From assembly GCF_000411155.1 (NCBI RefSeq), contig NZ_KE150266.1, forward strand, positions 186,001 to 250,000: a stretch of 64,000 nt of DNA, in the 5' to 3' direction. A model generated the notes under the pieces. It saw only the letters and a list, made by a program, of their open reading frames with translations, made no database searches and had not been told where the DNA came from. The position numbers and the translations under genes are program-made. This document shows, one piece after another, positions 3,303 through 35,561 of this stretch. This DNA comes from Gleimia europaea ACS-120-V-Col10b (lineage in GTDB: Bacteria; Actinomycetota; Actinomycetes; Actinomycetales; Actinomycetaceae). The first letter of the stretch is position 1, and the number at the start of each line of letters is the position of its first letter.

Positions 3303-4643
3303 ATGCCAGCACGCACCTCACTGTCCGGTTTCCCCGAATGGCTTCCCGCCGAACGGATTGTGGAACAGCACATTCTTGATCAACTACGTGAGACCTTTGA
3401 GCTCCACGGTTTTGCCTCTATTGAAACCCGCGCTGTTGAGACTTTGGATGACCTGCTTCGCAAGGGAGAAACCTCAAAAGAGGTCTACCTGCTTGAGCGC
3501 CTGCAAGACCAGTTGCAAGAGCGCTCTGATTCCAAGAAGGAACGCACCCTGGGCCTGCACTTTGACCTCACGGTGCCGTTTGCCCGCTACGTCCTCGACA
3601 ATGCTGGTGAACTTCAGTTTCCGTTCCGCCGCTACCAGATCCAAAAAGTGTGGCGCGGAGAACGCCCCCAAGACGGGCGTTTTCGCGAGTTCACGCAGGC
3701 TGATATCGACATCGTGGGCAACGGTACGCTTGCGTTCCACCACGAGGTGGAAATTCCCCTGGTGATTTTGGAGGCGTTTTCTAAGCTCCCGATACCGCCG
3801 GTTACGGTTTTGGTGAATAACCGCAAGATCGTGCAGGGCTTTTGCGAAGGAATCGGCGTGGAGAATGTTGAGCAGGCGCTTCGTTCTATAGACAAGTTGG
3901 ACAAGATTGGGCCTGAGGGAGTACGCGCGGAAATGGAAGAGTTTGACTTTCAAGCCGAGCAGATTGATCAGCTTTTGAAGCTTGCGCAAATTTCTGGCGA
4001 TGATCAAAGCGTGCTGAATGAGGTTCGCGCTCTCGGCGTGTCTAATGAGCTTCTTGAAGAAGGCCTCGAAGAACTCGGAGCACTACTAGCGGCCGGAGAA
4101 AAGCGGGCGCCGCACCGTTTGCGTGCCGAACTGAAGATTACGCGCGGCCTGGACTATTACACGGGTACGGTTTATGAAACCGAGCTGGAGGGGCACAAGG
4201 ATCTTGGCTCCATCTGCTCGGGAGGACGCTACGATTCGCTCGCCTCCGATGGGAAGCGCTCCTATCCGGGTGTGGGCATCTCAATCGGCGTTTCGCGCCT
4301 AGTTTCGCGTATCTTGGCCGAGGGGCTTGCCACAGCATCGCGCTCGGTGCCAACGGCTGTTCTCGTGGCCGTGATGAATGAGGAATCGCGCGAGGCATCG
4401 CAAGACGTTGCCGCAACGCTTAGAGCACGCGGCATAGCAACCGAGGTTTCGCCCAACTCGCAGAAGTTTGGAAAGCAAATCCGATACGCGGACAGGCGTG
4501 GTATTCCGTTCGTGTGGTTTATCGGCGAGGACGGGGCGCACGAGGTAAAAGATATTCGCTCGGGCGAGCAGCAAAGCGCTGATCCACAGACGTGGAGGCC
4601 ACCGGCTGAGGATCTGAAGCCCACCGTAAAACTGGGGGAGTAG
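3303..4643 (+). CDS. hisS: Histidyl-tRNA synthetase
   Basis: Class II aminoacyl-tRNA synthetase charging tRNA-His, 446 residues, of normal length. Class II motif 2 is visible as FRRYQIQKVWRGERPQDGRF, followed by the ADIDIVG strand. The histidine-specific motif GLDYYTGTVYE lies near residue 282, and motif 3 falls in the PGVGISIGVSRL segment. The C-terminal about 95 residues form the anticodon-binding domain. The ATG at 3303 has an AGGA Shine-Dalgarno eight bases upstream. Only 3 bp separate its stop from the next gene, a GTPase, so the two are probably coexpressed. Confidence 0.98.
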   Translation: MPARTSLSGFPEWLPAERIVEQHILDQLRETFELHGFASIETRAVETLDDLLRKGETSKEVYLLERLQDQLQERSDSKKERTLGLHFDLTVPFARYVLDNAGELQFPFRRYQIQKVWRGERPQDGRFREFTQADIDIVGNGTLAFHHEVEIPLVILEAFSKLPIPPVTVLVNNRKIVQGFCEGIGVENVEQALRSIDKLDKIGPEGVRAEMEEFDFQAEQIDQLLKLAQISGDDQSVLNEVRALGVSNELLEEGLEELGALLAAGEKRAPHRLRAELKITRGLDYYTGTVYETELEGHKDLGSICSGGRYDSLASDGKRSYPGVGISIGVSRLVSRILAEGLATASRSVPTAVLVAVMNEESREASQDVAATLRARGIATEVSPNSQKFGKQIRYADRRGIPFVWFIGEDGAHEVKDIRSGEQQSADPQTWRPPAEDLKPTVKLGE

Positions 4644-4646
4644 CAG

Positions 4647-6353
4647 GTGGAGGAATATCTTTCCCTGAGCGCGCTCGAGGGCGTGCTTGCCGGTGTTGCG
4701 CTTCCGTTGGATCTTCCTGAAGCGCCTAATGCGCGAGAGGTGGCGAATCGGTCTGCGCGGCGCCTAGAGGATCATATTTTGCCGCGGTTACAAAGCCTGG
4801 ACGCACCGCTGGTGTGCGTGGTGGGTGGCTCCACGGGGGCGGGCAAATCAACGATTGTGAACTCGCTGGTGGGCCAGCAGGTGTCGGCATCGTCCGCGAA
4901 ACGACCAACTACTAGAAGCCCGCTTCTGCTTCATCGCGGCGCTGATGCGCACTGGTTTGAAAATGACCGGGTGCTTCCCACACTGCCGCGCCGTCGCGTT
5001 GCGGCGGACGCGCCGCCCTCCGCGCCGAATGTGGACGTAGTGAATGAGCTGGAGCTTCGTGCAAATGAGCAGGTTCCAGACGGCCTCGCCATTATTGATG
5101 CACCTGATCTGGATTCGGTGGTGGCAGACAATCGGGCGCTTGCCCGCCAGCTATTGGACGCGGCTGACTTTTGGGTTTTTGTAACCACCGCGGCCCGGTA
5201 TGCGGATGCGGTGCCGTGGCAAATGCTCCAAGATGCGGCGGCGCGAAACATTGCGATAGCAGTGGTATTGAACCGCGTTCCAGCAGGTGCCGTGGAAGAG
5301 GTGCGCGCAGATTTGTCCACCATGCTCGCGCAGGCGGGGCTGGGAAGCGCACCCCTGATAGCGATTGAAGAAGCCCCACTTGCAGAAGGCATGATTTCAC
5401 CTCAGAGTCTGCGCCCACTTGCAAACTGGTTGACGTCGCTGACCGATACTGCGGCGGTGCGCGCGCAAACTGCCCGGAGGACGCTACGTGGATCCGTTGC
5501 AGAACTGCTGGACGGCCTCTCTCTTGTTGAATCGGCCCTGGTAGAACAGGCGATTGTCGCAACGGACGGCCTCGCCGTCCTTGACGCCCGGGTTGACGCT
5601 GCAACGCGCCGAGTAGCAAAACAAACGGGAGACGGCACACTCTTGCGCGGTGAGGTGCTTGCCAGATGGCAAGAGGTGGTGGGCACGGCCGAACTGTCGC
5701 GTCGAATTGATCAGGGCGTGTCTTGGTTGAAGGCGCGCGTGACTGGCTTCCTCACGGGCAAGCCCGTTAGCACGCAGCCGGTTGAGGCCGCACTTGGTGA
5801 CGGATTGCGCGCTTTGCTGGCCGATGAAATTGTGCGTACCCACGACGAAGTGAGGCGAACTTGGGCGCAAAGCCGGGCGATGCGAGATGTCGAGGCCGGG
5901 GTAGAGCCCGTACCTACTGCGCAGTTCGATCAGATGGCGAAGGATTTGACGCGGGAGTGGCAGCACAGCCTGCTCAAAATGGTGTCGGATCAGGCGGGAT
6001 CTAAGAAGATGTCAGCCCGATTCCTGGCGATTGGTGTGAACGTCCTCGGTGTGGCGTTGATGATCGTAATCTTTGCATCTACGGGTGGTTTGACCGGCGC
6101 CGAGGTAGGAGTTGCCGGCGCCACTTCGGTAGTGGCCCAGCGCCTCCTCGAATCGGTGTTTGGTGATCAGGCAGTCTCGGCGATGACGAAACAGGCGCAC
6201 AGTGATTTGCAGGAGCGTTTCCGCGCAGTTTTAAGTGAATCCCTCGAATCTTTTGCGCAAAGCATGCCAGAGGTGTCAGATCCAGAAGAACTGAGTGGGG
6301 CCGTTCAGCGGGCTCGCCAAGCATGGGAGCGAGGTGAGCATGCGAATCTTTAA
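4647..6353 (+). CDS. Dynamin-like membrane GTPase, first of pair
   Basis: A 568-residue P-loop GTPase with a dynamin-like layout. G1/Walker A GGSTGAGKST lies near residue 60, followed by a G2-like threonine in KRPTTRSP. The G3 region reads DAPDLDS rather than the usual DxxG, and the G4 region VVLNRVP lacks the NKxD aspartate. A hydrophobic hairpin near residues 455-500 (VLGVALMIVIFAS and a Gly/Ala-rich segment) should insert into membrane. The GTG start lies 3 bp after hisS. A second, related GTPase overlaps its end, suggesting a heteromeric pair like the paired dynamin-like proteins of other actinobacteria. Membrane remodelling is the likely role, but this is inferred from family features only. 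Confidence 0.8.
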   Translation: MEEYLSLSALEGVLAGVALPLDLPEAPNAREVANRSARRLEDHILPRLQSLDAPLVCVVGGSTGAGKSTIVNSLVGQQVSASSAKRPTTRSPLLLHRGADAHWFENDRVLPTLPRRRVAADAPPSAPNVDVVNELELRANEQVPDGLAIIDAPDLDSVVADNRALARQLLDAADFWVFVTTAARYADAVPWQMLQDAAARNIAIAVVLNRVPAGAVEEVRADLSTMLAQAGLGSAPLIAIEEAPLAEGMISPQSLRPLANWLTSLTDTAAVRAQTARRTLRGSVAELLDGLSLVESALVEQAIVATDGLAVLDARVDAATRRVAKQTGDGTLLRGEVLARWQEVVGTAELSRRIDQGVSWLKARVTGFLTGKPVSTQPVEAALGDGLRALLADEIVRTHDEVRRTWAQSRAMRDVEAGVEPVPTAQFDQMAKDLTREWQHSLLKMVSDQAGSKKMSARFLAIGVNVLGVALMIVIFASTGGLTGAEVGVAGATSVVAQRLLESVFGDQAVSAMTKQAHSDLQERFRAVLSESLESFAQSMPEVSDPEELSGAVQRARQAWERGEHANL

Positions 6354-28137: not shown

Positions 28138-28683
28138 GTGGGGCACATGCCACAGGTGAAAACTGTTCTGGATGAGGGGCAGATTTCGCGCGCTGTTTCG
28201 CGCATTTGTTACGAGATTCTTGAGCGCACGGATGGCGCTGAAGACCTGGTTATACTCGGAATTCCAACCCGGGGAGTTCCGCTGGCAAACAGGTTGGCTA
28301 AGCGGCTGCGCGAGGTAAGTGAAGCGCCGGTCCAGGTGGGCTCGCTAGATATCACAATGTATCGCGATGATTTGGCGGGTAATCCGATTCGGACACCCCA
28401 CCCGATGTCCATTCCGGAATCGGGCATCGACGGCAAAACCGTCATCTTGGTTGATGATGTTTTGTATACGGGACGCACGGTCAAGGCCGCTCTAGACGCG
28501 CTGTTTGATTTGGGCCGCCCAAAAGCGGTGAGACTGGCCACGCTGGTTGATCGAGGGCACCGAGAACTCCCGATTCGTCCAGATTTTGTGGGTAAGAATC
28601 TGCCTACCTCGCGAAAAGAATCCGTTGATATCGAACTTAGTGAGATCGACGGGATTGACCGCGTGATCATTCGGGAGGCGTGA
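28138..28683 (+). CDS. pyrR: Bifunctional pyr operon regulator / uracil phosphoribosyltransferase PyrR
   Basis: About 181 residues; a type I phosphoribosyltransferase-fold RNA-binding regulator that senses UMP/UTP and may also act as uracil phosphoribosyltransferase. The PRPP loop is [18 protein letters not shown] near residue 105; other family blocks are [11 protein letters not shown] and [13 protein letters not shown] 28138 is chosen because the GAGG of the upstream PyrR loop lies at good spacing; ATG 28147, with AAAGG before it, is the alternative. It is the first gene of the pyrimidine operon, and its own leader carries the predicted binding site. Confidence 0.95.
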
Positions 28684-29654
28684 TGAAACACCTGATTTCT
28701 ATATCTGACTTGAGCGTAGATGATGCGATCCGCATTTTGGACGTTGCCGAAGCGATGGCAGCTACGCAGTCGCGCGCAATCAAGAAGCTACCGACTCTGC
28801 GCGGGAAGACAGTTATAAACCTGTTTTTTGAAGATTCCACCCGCACGAGGTTGTCTTTCGAGGCTGCGGCCAAGCGCCTTTCCGCAGACGTGATTAGCTT
28901 CTCCGCTAAAGGATCTTCCGTATCTAAGGGCGAGTCGCTGAAGGATACCGCTCTAACGTTGCAGGCCATGGGCGCAGACGCTGTGGTGGTACGGCACCGC
29001 TCCTCGGGCGCGGCGCACCGCCTTGCCCACGCCGGTTGGATTGACCTACCGGTGCTGAACGCGGGTGACGGGACGCACCAACACCCCACGCAGGCACTCC
29101 TAGATGCAATGACGTTACGCCGTCACTTCACTAACGAAGGCCGGCCCGCTGAGCCGGGCACCACACTTGCGGGTGCGCACGTGGCTATCGTGGGTGACAT
29201 CCTCCATTCGCGTGTGGCCCGCTCGAACGTGGGCCTGATGTCGATGCTCGGGGCGCGCGTAACCCTCGTTGCTCCGCCCACGCTCCTTCCGGTTGGCGTG
29301 GAAAACTGGCCTTGCGAAGTCACCTACGATTTTGATGAGGCTCTTGCGGCTCACCTAGACGCGGTTATCATGCTGCGCATCCAACACGAGAGGATGAGCG
29401 CGGCGGGTGGCGGTTTTTTCCCCTCCCCGGAGGAATACCACCATTCGTATGGATTGGATAGTGAACGTTTTGAGCGGCTGGGAAAGCACACCGCGATCAT
29501 GCATCCGGGCCCATTGAATCGCGGTTTGGAGATCTGTGCCCAGGCGGCAGATTCGGCGCAGTCGGTAATCGTGGAACAGGTAAGTAACGGGGTGAGCGTG
29601 CGGATGGCGGCGCTCTACCTGCTTCTGGCAGCGAAGGAGAACTTCAATGTGTAA
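28683..29654 (+). CDS. pyrB: Aspartate carbamoyltransferase catalytic subunit
   Basis: A 323-residue enzyme joining carbamoyl phosphate and aspartate to form carbamoyl aspartate. The carbamoyl-phosphate motif [12 protein letters not shown] lies near residue 50; [28 protein letters not shown] and [11 protein letters not shown] follow as expected. No pyrI regulatory subunit is nearby. ATG 28683 overlaps the pyrR stop (TGATG) and has GGAGG upstream. It overlaps pyrC by 8 bp. Confidence 0.98.
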
Positions 29655-30948
29655 AGAGATTCTGTTTGTAGGTGCGCGCCCGTATGGCGAAGAGAGCGCG
29701 GATATCGCGGTTCGTGGAAATAAGATCGTAGCTGTTGGTCAGGATGCTCGTAACGCGGTTGCTGAGGCGGAAGTGGTTGACGTGACGGGCCTGGTGGCAC
29801 TGCCCGGCCTGGTTGATCTGCACACGCACTTGCGTGAGCCCGGGCAGGAGGATGCCGAAACGGTGTTCACGGGCACAAGGGCGGCCGCGGTAGGTGGGTA
29901 CACATGCGTGTTTGCCATGGCGAACACGAATCCGGTGGCGGACACGGCATCGGTGGTGGAACAGGTGAAGATGCTCGGTGACACGGCCGGTTGGGTGGAG
30001 GTCCACCCGATTGGTGCGGTCACCGTTGGCTTGGAGGGCAAGACTCTGTCCTCGATGAGCGCCATGGCTAAGTCGCAGGCCGAGGTGCGCGTGTTTTCCG
30101 ATGACGGCAAGTGCGTCGCCGACCCGGTGCTGATGCGCCGCGCCCTCGAATATGTAAAAACTTTTGGTGGTGTGATCGCTCAGCACGCGCAGGATCCGGC
30201 GCTCACCGAAGGCGCACAAATGAACGAGTCGCCGCTTTCCGCAGAGCTTGGCCTGGCCGGCTGGCCCGCCGTGGCTGAAGAGGCTATCATTGCCCGCGAC
30301 GTTGCCCTAACGGATCACGTTGGCTCGCGCTACCACGTGCTGCACGCGTCTACAAAGGGCTCGGTGGAGCAGATTCGCGAGGCTAAGCGCCGCGGAATCA
30401 ACGTGACGGCAGAGGCCACGCCCCACCACATTTTCCTCACTGAAGAAGAAGCCCGCTCCTACGATCCGCGCTTTAAGGTGAACCCGCCACTGCGCACGCA
30501 GGAGGATGTGGAGGCGCTGCGCGATGCTCTTGAAGATGGCACGATCGACACGATTGGTACCGATCATGCGCCGCATCCTCTGGAGATGAAGGATTGCGAG
30601 TGGCAGGCCGGAGCGTTCGGCATGATTGGGATTGAGACCGCACTACCCGTCCTCATCACCACGATGGTGGACACGGGGCGTATGAACTGGCGCGATATTG
30701 CGCGCGTCATGTCTGAAAAGCCCGCGCAGATTGGTCTTGCAACCGAGCAGGGCCAGCCCATTGCGGCCGGTTCGTTTGCAAACCTTGCGTTCGTGGATCC
30801 AAATGTGGAGCGCGTTGTAGAAAACGGCTGGTCGCGCTCAACGAATAACCCGTACCTCGGCCACACGCTGAAGGGCCAGGTTATGTACACGGTTTACCGT
30901 GGCAAGATCACGGTGCGCGAGGGCATGCCAGTTCAGGAGGAACGATGA
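29647..30948 (+). CDS. pyrC: Dihydroorotase
   Basis: A 433-residue type I dihydroorotase of the amidohydrolase superfamily that cyclises carbamoyl aspartate. Metal-binding HTH is seen in [15 protein letters not shown] near residue 58, with further histidines in AQHAQDP and HVLHAST and the catalytic aspartate in [10 protein letters not shown] near residue 305. The start lies within the end of pyrB, and the stop overlaps carA (ATGA). Active type I enzymes are often associated with PyrB; that cannot be judged here. Confidence 0.97.
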
Positions 30949-31427
30949 GTGTTGCAGTTCTAGTGACGTCTGACGGTCACGTGTTTAGTGGGCGCGCATT
31001 TGGCGCGATTGGCGAGGTGGTGGCTCCCGCTTTGATTGATACTTCAGTGGCGGATTATTCGCGCGTGCTGAGCATGGGGGAGAGCGAAGGCAAGATCGCG
31101 GTGTTCGCCTCCCCGCACATTGGGAACGTAGGGTTGCCTGCCCCGTTCGAACCGCTGGCGCGAGGCGTTGTGGTTCGCGAGGCCTCGCGGATCGCTTCGA
31201 ATTGGCAGTCGCAGGGTGAGCTTGAACCGGCGTTGCGGGCCGCTGGTGTGGCTGGCATTGAAGGGATCGATACCCGTGCCCTGGTGAAACTTTTGGTGCA
31301 AAACCCGGATCTGCGCGTCGGGATTTTCTCTGGTGCAGTGATCGATTCCTACGATTTAGAAGAGGGGGAGCGCACCCCGCGTGACCTCGTGAAATGTTTA
31401 CAAAACCGCGTTAAGGGGGCCAACTAA
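30945..31427 (+). CDS. carA: Carbamoyl-phosphate synthase small subunit reduced to its N-terminal domain (no glutaminase)
   Basis: Only 160 residues, against about 360-400 for normal CarA. The sequence matches the N-terminal small-subunit domain: [17 protein letters not shown], the SPHIGNVG block, EASRIASN and [11 protein letters not shown]. The family's NTSMTGY block is altered to DTSVADY. The frame stops at TAA 31425-31427 and carB begins in that stop codon (TAATG), so the entire C-terminal class I glutamine amidotransferase domain, with its Cys-His-Glu triad, is missing without a remnant. The start overlaps the pyrC stop (ATGA). The remaining domain is the part that docks on CarB. The enzyme may therefore use free ammonia or borrow a glutaminase encoded elsewhere; both are inference. 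Confidence 0.9.
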
Positions 31428-34400
31428 TGCCGCGCAGAAGTGATTTGCAGTCCGTTCTCGTTATTGGTTCTGGCCCCATCGTTATTGGGCAGGCATGCGA
31501 GTTTGACTACTCGGGTTCACAGGCTTGCCGCGTGCTTCGCGAAGAAGGCATGCGCGTGATCCTCGTGAACTCAAATCCGGCGACCATTATGACCGATCCC
31601 AACATGGCCGACGCCACCTACGTGGAGCCGATCACTACCAGCTCTATTGAGCGAATTATCGCCAAGGAGCGCCCCGATGCGTTGCTGCCCACCCTGGGCG
31701 GGCAGACCGCTTTGAATGCGGCGATGAACCTTGCTGAAGCCGGGATCTTGGAAAAGTACGGGGTGGAAATCATCGGCTCCAGTGTGGAAACTATCCGCGC
31801 GGGTGAAGATCGCGATGAGTTTAAAGAGATCGTGGAGCGTTGCGGCGCAGAGGTGGCAAGGTCGCGGATAGCCCATTCGCTACAGGACGCGTTGGATGCG
31901 GCCAATGAGCTTGGATACCCGTTGGTGGTTCGCCCCTCGTTCACGATGGGCGGCCTCGGTTCTGGATTTGCACACACGCAAGCAGAGTTGACGCGTTTCG
32001 TTGAGCACGGCCTGCGCGATTCGCTCACTAACGAGGTGCTGCTCGAAGAGTCGATTCTGGGCTGGAAAGAGCTCGAACTTGAGATGATCCGCGATCGCAC
32101 CGGCGAGACGATGTTGGTTACAACCATCGAGAACGTGGATCCCGTGGGAGTACACACCGGAGATTCCATCACGGTGGCGCCCGCGTTGACTCTCACCCAA
32201 AGCGAGATCGAAGATCTTGTGCGCATAGGAGCCGACATCATTAAAGGCGTGGGCGTGAACCAGGGTGGTTGTAACATCCAGTTTGCGATTAACCCTGCGG
32301 ACGGACGCATTGTCGTCATTGAAATGAATCCGCGCGTTTCGCGCTCATCTGCCCTCGCGTCGAAGGCGACGGGCATTCCGATCGCGAAGATCGCGGCCCG
32401 ACTTGCGATTGGCTACGATCTTGCAGAAATCAAGTCGGATATCGCCCCCACTCGCACGGCCGCACAGTCACCATTGATTGACTACGTGGTGGTGAAAGTG
32501 CCGCGTTTTGCGTTTGAGAAGTTCCCCGCTTCGGATAAGACGCTTACCACTTCCATGAAGTCGGTGGGTGAGGCCATGGCGATTGGCCGTACATTTTCCG
32601 AAGCTCTACTTAAGGCGCAGCGTTCGATTGATAAAGCTGGCGTGTCGTTCCACTGGGACGGGACGGCGCCGGACGCAGCCGAGGTGGACGCGCTACTCGA
32701 GCAGATCCAAACGCCTACCGAGGCGCGTCTCGTGCAGTTGCAGCAGGCGATTCGCGGCGGCGCCACCTGCGAACAGATTAATCGCGCAACCGCTATCGAC
32801 CCGTGGTTTATTGACCAAATCCAACAGGTGGAGGACGTAGCGCGCCAGATCATGGATGCCGAAGCACTATCTGCAGGCGTATTGCGCGAGGCAAAGCGCC
32901 ACGGCTTTTCTGACGCTCAGATTGCGTCGTTGCGTTCCATGCCTGAAGAGGTCGTGCGAGAAATCCGCCGCGCCTACAACATTCACCCGGTGTTCAAGGC
33001 AGTGGATACGTGCGCGGGCCTGGATTACGCAGCCACCCCGTACTACTACTCAACGTACGAGGAGGTCTCGGAAATCGAACAGCGCGAGCGCCCTGCGGTG
33101 ATGATCCTTGGATCTGGCCCGAATCGGATTGGGCAGGGAATCGAGTTTGACTACTCTTGCGTGCACGCCACGATGGCGCTGCGCGAGGAGTATGACACGA
33201 TCATGGTGAACTGCAACCCGGAGACGGTTTCAACTGACTATGACATTTCGGATCGCCTCTACTTTGAACCGCTCACGCTAGAGGACGTGCTCGAAGTATT
33301 CGAAACCGAGCAGGCGGCCGGCCCCATTGCGGGTGTGCTCGTCCAACTGGGTGGGCAAACCCCACTGTCGCTTGCAGACGCGCTTGAACGCGCGGGAATG
33401 CCGATTGTGGGTACCACACCGGCTTCGATCAATCTGGCTGAGGATCGCGAAGCATTTGGCCGTGTCCTTGACGAGGTAGGACTGCCCGCTCCCGCGCACA
33501 AGACGGCCACCACGGCCAGCGCGGCACTGGTTGCGGCGCGCGAGGTGGGGTATCCCGTGCTCGTGCGCCCCTCGTTCGTACTTGGCGGGCGCGGTATGGC
33601 CATCATTTACGAAGAGGAAGGCCTGGCCGAATACCTGAAAAATGCGGGCGCCGGCGTATTCGCTACCGGCCCGTTGCTGATCGACAAATTCCTTGATGAC
33701 GCGGTGGAAATCGACGTGGACGCGCTCTACGACGGTAGTGAACTGTTTATGGGCGGCATCATGGAGCATATCGAAGAGGCCGGCATTCACTCGGGTGACT
33801 CCGCGTGCGTGATGCCCCCGATGTCGCTGTCTGAACGTCAGATTGACCGCATTGTGAAATCGACGGAGGCAATCGCAAAAGGTGTGGGCGTGCGTGGCCT
33901 GCTGAACATCCAGTTCGCGCTGGCCTCGGATGTGCTCTACGTGATCGAGGCAAACCCGAGAGCTTCTAGGACCGTACCGTTTGCTTCCAAGGCGTCCGGC
34001 GTGGCACTTGCGCGGGCGGCGGCAAAGATCCAGATGGGTCAAACCATCGCCCAGCTACGCGCCCAGGGTGACCTTCCCGCGTACGATCAGGCGGTGCAAG
34101 ACCTCGATGAGCCGATTTCCGTTAAGGAAGCCGTCCTCCCGTTCGACCGCTTCCGCGATGGTAATGGCGAAGTGGTTGACACCCTGCTGGGCCCAGAGAT
34201 GCGCTCAACCGGCGAGGTCATGGGGCTTGATGAGTCTTTCCCCGCCGCGTACGCGAAATCCCAGATTTGCGCCTACGGTGGTCTGCCTGCCGCCGGTACG
34301 GTGTTCATCTCGATAGCGGATGCGGACAAACGCGGCATTATTCTGCCCGCTTCCAAACTGGTTGAGCTGGGTTTTAAGATCATGGCTACCACGGGCACTG

Positions 34401-34726
34401 CCTCGGTTCTGCGCCGAAACGGAATCGACGTGGAGGTAGTGGCCAAGGAATCCGAACGCAGCGAGGGAGGCGTTGCAATCACCGACCTCATCCACTCGGG
34501 CAAGGTAGACATGATTGTGAACACGCCGCAGGGCGAATCTGAACGCCGCGACGGTTACAAGATTCGCGCGGCCGCAACCTCGGCTGGAAAAGCAATCATT
34601 ACAACCCTGCAGGCGTTTAACTCGGCGGTACGCGCCATTAAAGCAGCCAAGACGGAAGAAATGCACGTGAAATCCTTGCAAGAATGGGACCGCGAGCGGG
34701 CGGAACGGAGGCAGACGAATGCCTGA
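31427..34726 (+). CDS. carB: Carbamoyl-phosphate synthase large subunit
   Basis: A full-length 1099-residue large subunit with two ATP-grasp halves. The N-terminal carboxyphosphate half shows [49 protein letters not shown] and [18 protein letters not shown]. The C-terminal carbamate-kinase half shows [29 protein letters not shown] and [18 protein letters not shown]. The last about 150 residues form the allosteric MGS-like domain ([20 protein letters not shown]). All visible catalytic motifs look intact although the partner CarA has lost its glutaminase. TAATG coupling upstream; 8-bp overlap with pyrF downstream. Confidence 0.98.
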
Positions 34727-35561
34727 GAGTTTTGGCACGCGCCTGGGCAGGGCCCTGGCAGCGCGCGGGCCGGTCTGTGCGGGTATTGATCCGCACGCCG
34801 GACTGCTGGAAGCTTGGGGTTTGCCGGTAAACGTGCATGGTTTATCCGAGTTTTCAAAGCGCTCCCTTGACGGGCTAAGCGAAGCGGCGGCCATCAAACC
34901 GCAGGCGGCATTCTTTGAGCGTTTTGGAGCGGCAGGCGTGGCGGTTTTGGAGGAGCTTCTTCGCAGTGCGCGCGAGCGCGGCGTGATCACTATTTTGGAT
35001 GTGAAGCGAGGTGACATCGGCTCGACAATGGCCGGTTACGCGGCCGCCTACCTGCCGCCGGGTGCCCCGCTGGAAGCCGACGCGATTACGGTTACGCCCT
35101 ACATGGGGCCGGCAGCCTTCGATGAAACCGCGCAGCTGGCAGCTGAGCATGGCAAAGGCCTTTTTGCGCTCGCGCTTACCTCGAACCCGCAGGGGGCTAC
35201 TTTGCAGCGATCAGTGGGGCAAGGTAAGACGGTTGCGAGCCAGGTAATTGAGTGGACGCGCGCTCAGAATGAAAAGTTTGATGCGGGTCAAAAGGTCGGT
35301 TCATTTGGCGTGGTGATTGGGGCAACCATTGCGGACCGAGCACAGGTGGTAGGTGAGGCGCTAGCCGGATACACCGGGCCGATCCTGATGCCCGGATTTG
35401 GTGCGCAAGGCGGTAGCATTAACGCCGATGATGCCGGTTTGAACATTGTGGTGTCATCCTCGCGAGCGGTGCTAAAAGCCGGCCCGAATCCGGCAGATCT
35501 GGCTACCGCGTTGAAGACTACGAACCGCAAAATTATGCGCGCGCTGGAAGGCGTCTCATAA
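34719..35561 (+). CDS. pyrF: Orotidine 5'-phosphate decarboxylase (type 2)
   Basis: A 280-residue decarboxylase forming UMP from OMP, of the long subfamily found in mycobacteria and relatives. Key blocks: [12 protein letters not shown] near residue 21, the catalytic [15 protein letters not shown] near residue 95 and GFGAQGG near residue 226. It overlaps carB by 8 bp and is coupled to gmk by TAATG. In many actinobacteria an integration host factor gene (mihF) lies between pyrF and gmk; here there is none. Confidence 0.97.

Follow-up and report, generated by a model that had tools for sequence, protein, structure and literature searches.

A carbamoyl phosphate synthetase without a glutaminase, probably run on free ammonia, in the pyrimidine operon of Gleimia europaea and in related Actinomycetaceae

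The pyrimidine operon of Gleimia europaea ACS-120-V-Col10b, found in a 64,000-nucleotide stretch of its genome (hereafter the window), encodes a carbamoyl phosphate synthetase (CPS) whose small subunit, carA', consists of the CarA amino-terminal domain alone. Judging from the gene sequences of the window and its relatives, we put at roughly 80% the probability that this is a working CPS without a glutaminase, which most likely takes free ammonia directly and feeds the operon in which it lies. Glutamine is predicted not to be its nitrogen donor, as no glutaminase is encoded with the CPS or was found in 37 relatives. Such an enzyme is already known in kind from vertebrate CPS I and from the small CPS of Methanobrevibacter smithii. 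Among the titles and abstract openings covered by our literature search, which left subscription papers mostly outside, we recognised no glutaminase-less bacterial CarA. The accessible text of PMC6022934 treats bacterial CPS as the glutamine-using CPS II, and that of a 2018 review gives glutamine as the physiological donor of the Escherichia coli enzyme.

The carA' gene and its operon

PF00988, at residues 6-120 (81.5 bits against a cut-off of 27, E 5.8e-23), is the sole Pfam domain of the carA' product, in which no GATase domain was found by Pfam, and the scores against both NCBIfam CarA models lie below their cut-offs (79.1 vs 307.35 bits and 84.5 vs 221 bits). The protein thus has the CPSase_sm_chain domain and fold expected of the amino-terminal half of a CarA and lacks the class I GATase with its Cys-His-Glu triad. 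A sequence-only reading of this DNA had described a 160-aa CarA reduced to the amino-terminal domain, with carB starting inside its stop codon; the open reading frame and the profile scores confirm the first point, and the junction TAATG, with the carB ATG at 31427, the second. The HIGNVG and DTRAL blocks that it reported as retained are both intact. The NTSMTGY block, which it reported as lost, is degraded and not absent, E. coli NTSMTGYQE reading DTSVADYSR in carA'. AlphaFold2 modelled the stub with confidence (mean pLDDT 93.3, pTM 0.89), and in Foldseek the model matches the amino-terminal domains of E. coli CarA (TMq 0.77-0.83, the best PDB match being 1cs0_B with 0.83) and human CPS1 (TMq 0.74-0.77), so that the stub is predicted to be a whole folded domain rather than a fragment.

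The large subunit has all the expected CPS domains in Pfam, that is two ATP-grasp halves, the oligomerisation domain and the MGS domain, and scores 1509.8 bits in NCBIfam against a cut-off of 599, which bears out its presumed completeness. Its residues at positions 129, 169, 215, 285, 299, 301 and 303, which we take to be catalytic, are the same as in relatives with a full-length CarA. The operon is otherwise intact, as had been claimed, with the order pyrR-pyrB-pyrC-carA'-carB-pyrF and every gene overlapping the next (Table 1). Two congeners (G117 and G126) each have a second PF02729 gene outside the pyr operon in addition to the one within it; since this second gene is presumably an ornithine carbamoyltransferase (OTC), the carbamoyl phosphate of this CPS may also be used for arginine metabolism.

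Table 1. Features of the pyrimidine operon in window coordinates; the last row refers to locus L180 of genome G093
Feature	Position	Strand	Basis and remarks
pyrR, upstream operon neighbour	28138..28683	+	Named by reading; synteny in relatives
pyrB, aspartate carbamoyltransferase	28680..29654	+	Named by reading; congener counterpart matches PF02729
pyrC, dihydroorotase	29647..30948	+	Pfam; overlaps carA' start
carA', 160 aa	30945..31427	+	CarA N-terminal (S1, PF00988) domain alone; ATG start, TAA stop
Degraded block of carA'	31026..31097	+	Residues 28-51, equal to E. coli CarA 29-52
carB, large subunit of CPS, complete, 1099 aa	31427..34726	+	Start codon within carA' stop; Pfam, NCBIfam
CarB codon 232 (ammonia-gate position)	32120..32122	+	Thr in window, not Cys
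CarB residues 257-265	32195..32221	+	Four parallel positions (257, 258, 262, 265); window differs at 258, 262 and 265
pyrF, OMP decarboxylase	34719..35561	+	Pfam; overlaps carB end
Full-length CarA with dead glutaminase motifs (G093, L180)	about 4253-5416	-	Motif reading, NCBIfam

If assembly or annotation had introduced a frameshift or a deletion where carA meets carB, the picture would be similar, and short CarAs that look like frameshifted full-length genes do occur in two related genomes (G083 and G160), 447-625 bp before carB, with the gap in G083 reading as a GATase; both were counted as full-length CarA and not as stubs. In contrast, the carA' stub stands directly before carB, leaving no room for a GATase, on several contigs of its protein cluster, in the congeners, in many further genomes and in Schaalia vaccimaxillae. 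This 90%-identity cluster, whose representative is identical to carA', comprises 7 sequences, carried by 8 contigs of up to 1.58 Mb. The stub architecture that the earlier reading proposed to seek in related genomes is therefore present in G117, G126 and S. vaccimaxillae, and on the strength of these congeners and of S. vaccimaxillae we rejected an assembly error, to which we give a negligible chance.

Distribution of glutaminase loss

We surveyed 213 Actinomycetaceae genomes, reached via a stub locus of this family (L003), PF00988 being present in 167 of them and the CarB domain PF02787 in 179. A stub of about 125-200 aa precedes carB, as judged from open frames, gene order and reading, in at least 28 of the 213 (G001, G033, G041, G061, G116-G123, G125, G126, G148, G149, G179, G181, G186, G187, G194-G196 and G198-G202, the genes of G200 being damaged), a lower bound given that the remaining frames of the 167 PF00988 genomes were partly inspected. 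CarB occurs without any PF00988 match in 13 more (G064, G066-G072, G130, G189, G190, G192 and G197), and together with G093, which has a full-length but degraded CarA, this brings the genomes without a functional CarA glutaminase to at least 42 out of 180 that have either marker. G206 was left unclassed, its gene ending at a contig edge. In the protein database, the named species S. vaccimaxillae matches with a short CarA stub and further short CarAs bear the name Actinomycetaceae bacterium. As to loss across actinobacteria, among the best 80 CarA loci in a scan of species genomes, 77 have the Cys and HP(E/D) motifs, while the other three are the stub locus L003 and two that run off their contig; among these loci the loss therefore looks concentrated in the Actinomycetaceae.

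Three short CarAs of 164-169 aa (P0009, P0011 and P0016) lie outside the stub clade and may be fragments or further cases. Two are named Candidatus Binataceae, one of these being marked partial, and several short CarAs from Binataceae and others are marked partial in the protein database.

Search for a replacement glutaminase

Using a profile of 12 CarA glutaminase domains, we searched 37 genomes that have lost the domain, namely all 28 with a stub and 9 of the 13 without carA (all but G068-G071), the completeness of these assemblies being unstated. A CarA-type glutaminase elsewhere in the genome was found in none of the 37, the best match reaching at most 68.5 bits, whereas the profile gave 344-360 bits in five of five intact genomes and 159 bits in G093. 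The weak matches are frames of mostly about 520-650 or 200-300 aa, suggesting GuaA and TrpG/HisH, and in the congeners G117 and G126 the sole match is a 524-aa GuaA-sized frame of about 31 bits. We thus rejected a stand-alone CarA glutaminase for these 37 genomes. The earlier reading had offered either an ammonia-dependent enzyme or one served by a separate glutaminase; the null result in the 37 relatives, against controls detected five times out of five, favours the first arm and speaks against the second in its CarA-type form.

The glutaminase could instead be borrowed in trans, with GuaA, TrpG/PabA, HisH, PyrG or another amidotransferase docking on CarB or on the stub. Genomes without the CarA domain still encode other class I GATases: many have a GuaA-sized frame of about 520 aa, and TrpG and GuaA were read in G001. 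The retention of a class I domain in GuaA-sized frames indicates that there was no general loss of glutamine use. However, the matches are weak and none reaches the CarA level, and the CarA and CarB residues that are invariant in relatives with a full-length CarA degrade (see below), which is the opposite of what the retention of a docking site would give, so that we regard borrowing as improbable. A dedicated source of another kind, such as a free glutaminase, a deaminase or a urease channelling ammonia to CarB, is less probable still: even though the searches were aimed at class I CarA-type domains, with PF00117 run in four genomes, no extra gene lies between pyrC, carA' and carB in the window or in the relatives that have the operon. 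Direct use of free ammonia remains the most likely reading.

Repeated loss of the glutaminase

All trees were quick LG+G4 searches. A 98-row CarB tree requires eight changes of the stub label, seven of them forced by supported branches, and on a tree of 78 rows, from which divergent, broken and long-branch rows were left out, the state 'glutaminase lost' likewise needs eight, seven of which are forced. Since a deleted domain is unlikely to return, we infer from these changes about eight independent glutaminase losses in the Actinomycetaceae. Genomes that have lost the domain adjoin intact sisters (G187/G188, G186/G185 and G130/G136), and the window clade of 11 stands beside G124. Forcing the 29 losers of the 78-row tree into one clade costs 927 log-likelihood units (p-AU 1e-46), and a single ancient loss, or one stub cassette spreading through the family, was rejected accordingly. 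The repetition of the loss among relatives makes it probable that they run the CPS step on free ammonia, like the liver enzyme.

Selection on the stub and degradation of one of its surfaces

Compared with two congeners, the carA' of the window shows a dS of 0.86-0.92 and a dN/dS of 0.116 and 0.105, and 12 stub pairs gave dN/dS values of 0.06-0.24; it evolves faster than the window carB, whose dN/dS is 0.040 (about 0.11 vs 0.04). By these ratios the stub is under purifying selection and conserved over long divergence. A fresh pseudogene was rejected for the window on the dN/dS values, though the sub-clade G194-G201 may differ.

Within the amino-terminal domain, the glutaminase-less groups retain the glycines, Arg83 and DTR (E. 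coli positions 12, 17, 61, 79, 83 and 114-116) together with Pro58. By contrast, E29, V31, F32, M36, D45, S47, Y48, Q51 and R93 are changed in five to nine of nine groups, the ninth being G093, in which the glutaminase is present but degraded; E29, S47 and Y48 are changed in all nine, if not in every row. In carA' itself the replaced E. coli residues of the block are E29, F32, M36, E41, D45, S47, Y48 and Q51. Taking one row per group, a mean of 13.9 of the 31 invariant amino-terminal columns are changed (minimum 11), against a mean of 0.004 and a maximum of 1 in the controls, or 0.055 and 4 once divergent clades are admitted. The stub of G041 retains most of the block, so the degradation is graded. 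As changes in the block occur in every losing group, the NTSMTGY block is probably a surface linked to glutaminase function.

The E41 position, Arg in the window and changed in four groups, corresponds by ungapped offset to what we take to be CPS1 Glu82. In the accessible text of PMC4655335 this Glu82 lies where the path proposed for external ammonia opens. The link between the degraded block and that path is suggestive, the position being changed in four groups only.

Parallel changes in CarB and the ammonia gate

As a reference we used 55 CarB rows with a full-length CarA, among them 14 from other families (CarA checked) and two with a frameshifted carA, and leaving out G093. Ten of the 262 CarB columns that are invariant in this reference are changed in at least three of eight independent losing groups, at positions 257, 258, 262, 265, 280, 324, 340, 348, 533 and 537 (window numbering). 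With one row per losing group, 6.3 columns are changed on average (minimum 5). A control in which eight intact clades were drawn 1000 times from a pool of 25 gave a mean of 0.023 and a maximum of 1. When divergent and outgroup clades are admitted the control becomes noisier and weaker: drawing from 36 clades, the mean is 0.33 and the maximum 17, with 17 of 1000 draws reaching the observed minimum of 5 and nine reaching the observed mean, and the highest value is 23 columns when every row per group is counted. All ten positions fall in CarB residues 1-549, where 158 of the 262 invariant columns are found (P 0.006). CarA is described as contacting two CarB domains, the carboxyphosphate and the oligomerisation domain (PMC6245113, accessible text), and by their positions in the sequence the ten parallel changes would all lie within these two.

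CarB position 232 is Cys in all 56 rows with a full-length CarA, G093 included. Thr was found there in six of the 28 stub rows (the window, G117, G126, G118, G120 and G121) and in one of the 14 carA-less rows (G071), the replacement being seen only among losers in the 98 rows. By offset, we take E. coli positions 232, 251 and 314 to be the counterparts of CPS1 Cys648, Ala667 and Ala729. These three CPS1 residues are given as an ammonia gate in the accessible text of PMC4655335. The other two gate positions (251 and 314) are invariant across the 98 rows, and since Thr232 is confined on the tree to one clade plus G071, the change has not recurred widely.

Together with the parallel CarB changes, the purifying selection acting on the stub points to a kept subunit in a working enzyme, in support of the earlier proposal that the stub is retained as a structural subunit.

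Intermediates and end stages

The active site was readable in 69 of 70 full-length CarA rows (60 genomes), and 68 have the catalytic Cys and the HP(E/D) motif. The CarA of G093 is full-length, but GICFGH has become GTGLGH and HPE has become HRG, so that the catalytic Cys and Glu are lost. Its dN/dS against the intact sister G095 is 0.40 for CarA and 0.10 for carB, estimable intact pairs giving 0.08-0.34.

At the other end stand genomes with no carA at all. An Arcanobacterium-like group of eight (G064 and G066-G072; loci L205-L212) is represented by G066 (L205), in which the operon is pyrC-carB-pyrK-pyrD-pyrF-pyrE-pyrB, with 23 bp from pyrC to carB and pyrE inferred from its phosphoribosyltransferase domain. 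Judged by gene order, this group appears to run a full pyrimidine operon on CarB alone. The named CarBs nearest to it are those of Arcanobacterium phocae, A. phocisimile and A. hippocoleae, the next matches, at about 74%, being Clostridia where named, and this carA-less CPS was probably acquired by transfer. The 13 genomes without a detectable carA suggest that the stub is dispensable in some lineages and not strictly required. G071 (L212 and L213) has two CarB genes, one of them strongly diverged, and no PF00988 match.

The CPS could also be a relic on its way out, with carbamoyl phosphate coming from the arginine deiminase route and carbamate kinase, or with pyrimidines obtained by salvage. 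The sub-clade G194-G201 (loci L188-L190, L192-L195 and L200) agrees with such a course: pyrR, pyrB, pyrC and pyrF are gone from the locus, carA' is down to about 130 aa and is gone in G197 (L200), where nusB-carB stands in place of the nusB-carA'-carB of its kin, and in G200 (L195) carA' and carB are both broken. The shrinkage and absence of carA there looks like decay. In the window, on the contrary, the operon is preserved in full, CarB is complete and has unchanged residues at the active-site positions checked and a dN/dS of 0.04, and the stub has been kept over long divergence at a dN/dS of about 0.1, which makes a relic an unlikely description of this CPS, about as unlikely as a borrowed glutaminase or slightly more so. 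A working, ammonia-using enzyme remains the preferred account for the window.

Proposed mechanism and comparison with known systems

In the accessible text of PMC6245113, the synthesis of carbamoyl phosphate from ammonia is assigned to CarB. In the proposed mechanism, ammonia would reach the bicarbonate-phosphorylating site along the interface between the CarA amino-terminal domain and CarB, the route suggested for external ammonia in human CPS1 and, though less clearly, for the E. coli enzyme, and the window CPS would use this alternative path all the time. The 160-aa stub would stay bound to CarB as a structural part covering, shaping or shielding the ammonia entry, the CarA and CarB surfaces that once served the glutaminase would have lost their constraint, and the ammonia gate would have changed from Cys to Thr in the window and the relatives closest to it. 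According to the accessible text of PMC4655335, blocking or perforating the glutamine tunnel of the E. coli enzyme leaves normal activity on external ammonia, which fits an alternative ammonia path. With ammonia, the E. coli enzyme is said to need very high and likely physiologically irrelevant concentrations (PMC6245113, accessible text), which would mean that the glutaminase-less enzymes differ or that their habitat is rich in ammonia.

The ammonium transporter AmtB is present in one of 31 losers (the 28 stub genomes, G197, G130 and G093) and in 12 of the 29 intact genomes compared (Fisher p 4e-4), although on independent pairs the contrast is not significant (median p 0.25). A link between AmtB loss and glutaminase loss was rejected, the raw counts being strong but not significant after pairing by kinship. 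The absence of AmtB may mean ample ammonium for these organisms, yet is no evidence of ammonia use. The losers without AmtB include G116, G119 and G122 as well as the congeners G117 and G126.

The CarB architecture and the fold of the CarA amino-terminal domain are the same as in the CarA-CarB enzyme of E. coli, a bacterial CPS II, from which the window differs in having no class I glutaminase, in the degraded linked residues of the amino-terminal domain and CarB, and in Thr at position 232. The best reading of the sequences is that the window CPS is convergent with vertebrate CPS I, which has likewise lost glutaminase function and kept its amino-terminal S1 domain. The CPS1 protein is a single polypeptide that retains S2 in an inactive form (Cys to Ser) and depends on N-acetylglutamate, whereas in the window S2 is deleted and carA' and carB are separate, overlapping genes. 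G093 is closer to CPS1 than the window is, being full-length with two of three triad residues lost. The 41-kDa CPS of M. smithii reportedly lacks a glutaminase and uses ammonia; it is a single ATP-grasp unit working as a dimer, in contrast to the duplicated CarB with a CarA remnant of the window. The accessible text of PMC6022934 relates this small dimer to the two synthetase domains, and also describes a split CPS in Aquifex aeolicus whose glutaminase subunit gives glutamine-dependent synthesis; its parts are separately encoded, as here, but we found no counterpart of its glutaminase subunit. NAD synthetase also has glutamine- and ammonia-using forms in bacteria, with lineage-specific loss of one, although in that family the ancestral state is taken to be the single-domain ammonia form (PMC3376133, accessible text) and the glutaminase-less CPS would be derived by repeated loss.

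Somewhat less firmly than for the window itself, we lean towards the wider view that a glutamine-dependent CPS became a true ammonia-dependent enzyme at least about eight times in one family, by way of a dead glutaminase, an amino-terminal stub and finally CarB alone, while CarB was remodelled in parallel and its ammonia gate changed in one clade. If true, this would repeat in bacteria the vertebrate step from CPS II to CPS I, and would overturn the rule that every bacterial CPS uses glutamine. The glutaminase would have been discarded repeatedly, with the intermediates still present, and in the window within an intact pyrimidine operon. The CarB residues that changed in independent losers are candidate positions linking the glutaminase to the synthetase, and the family may offer natural experiments on how external ammonia enters CPS and on the role of the CarA amino-terminal domain apart from glutamine.
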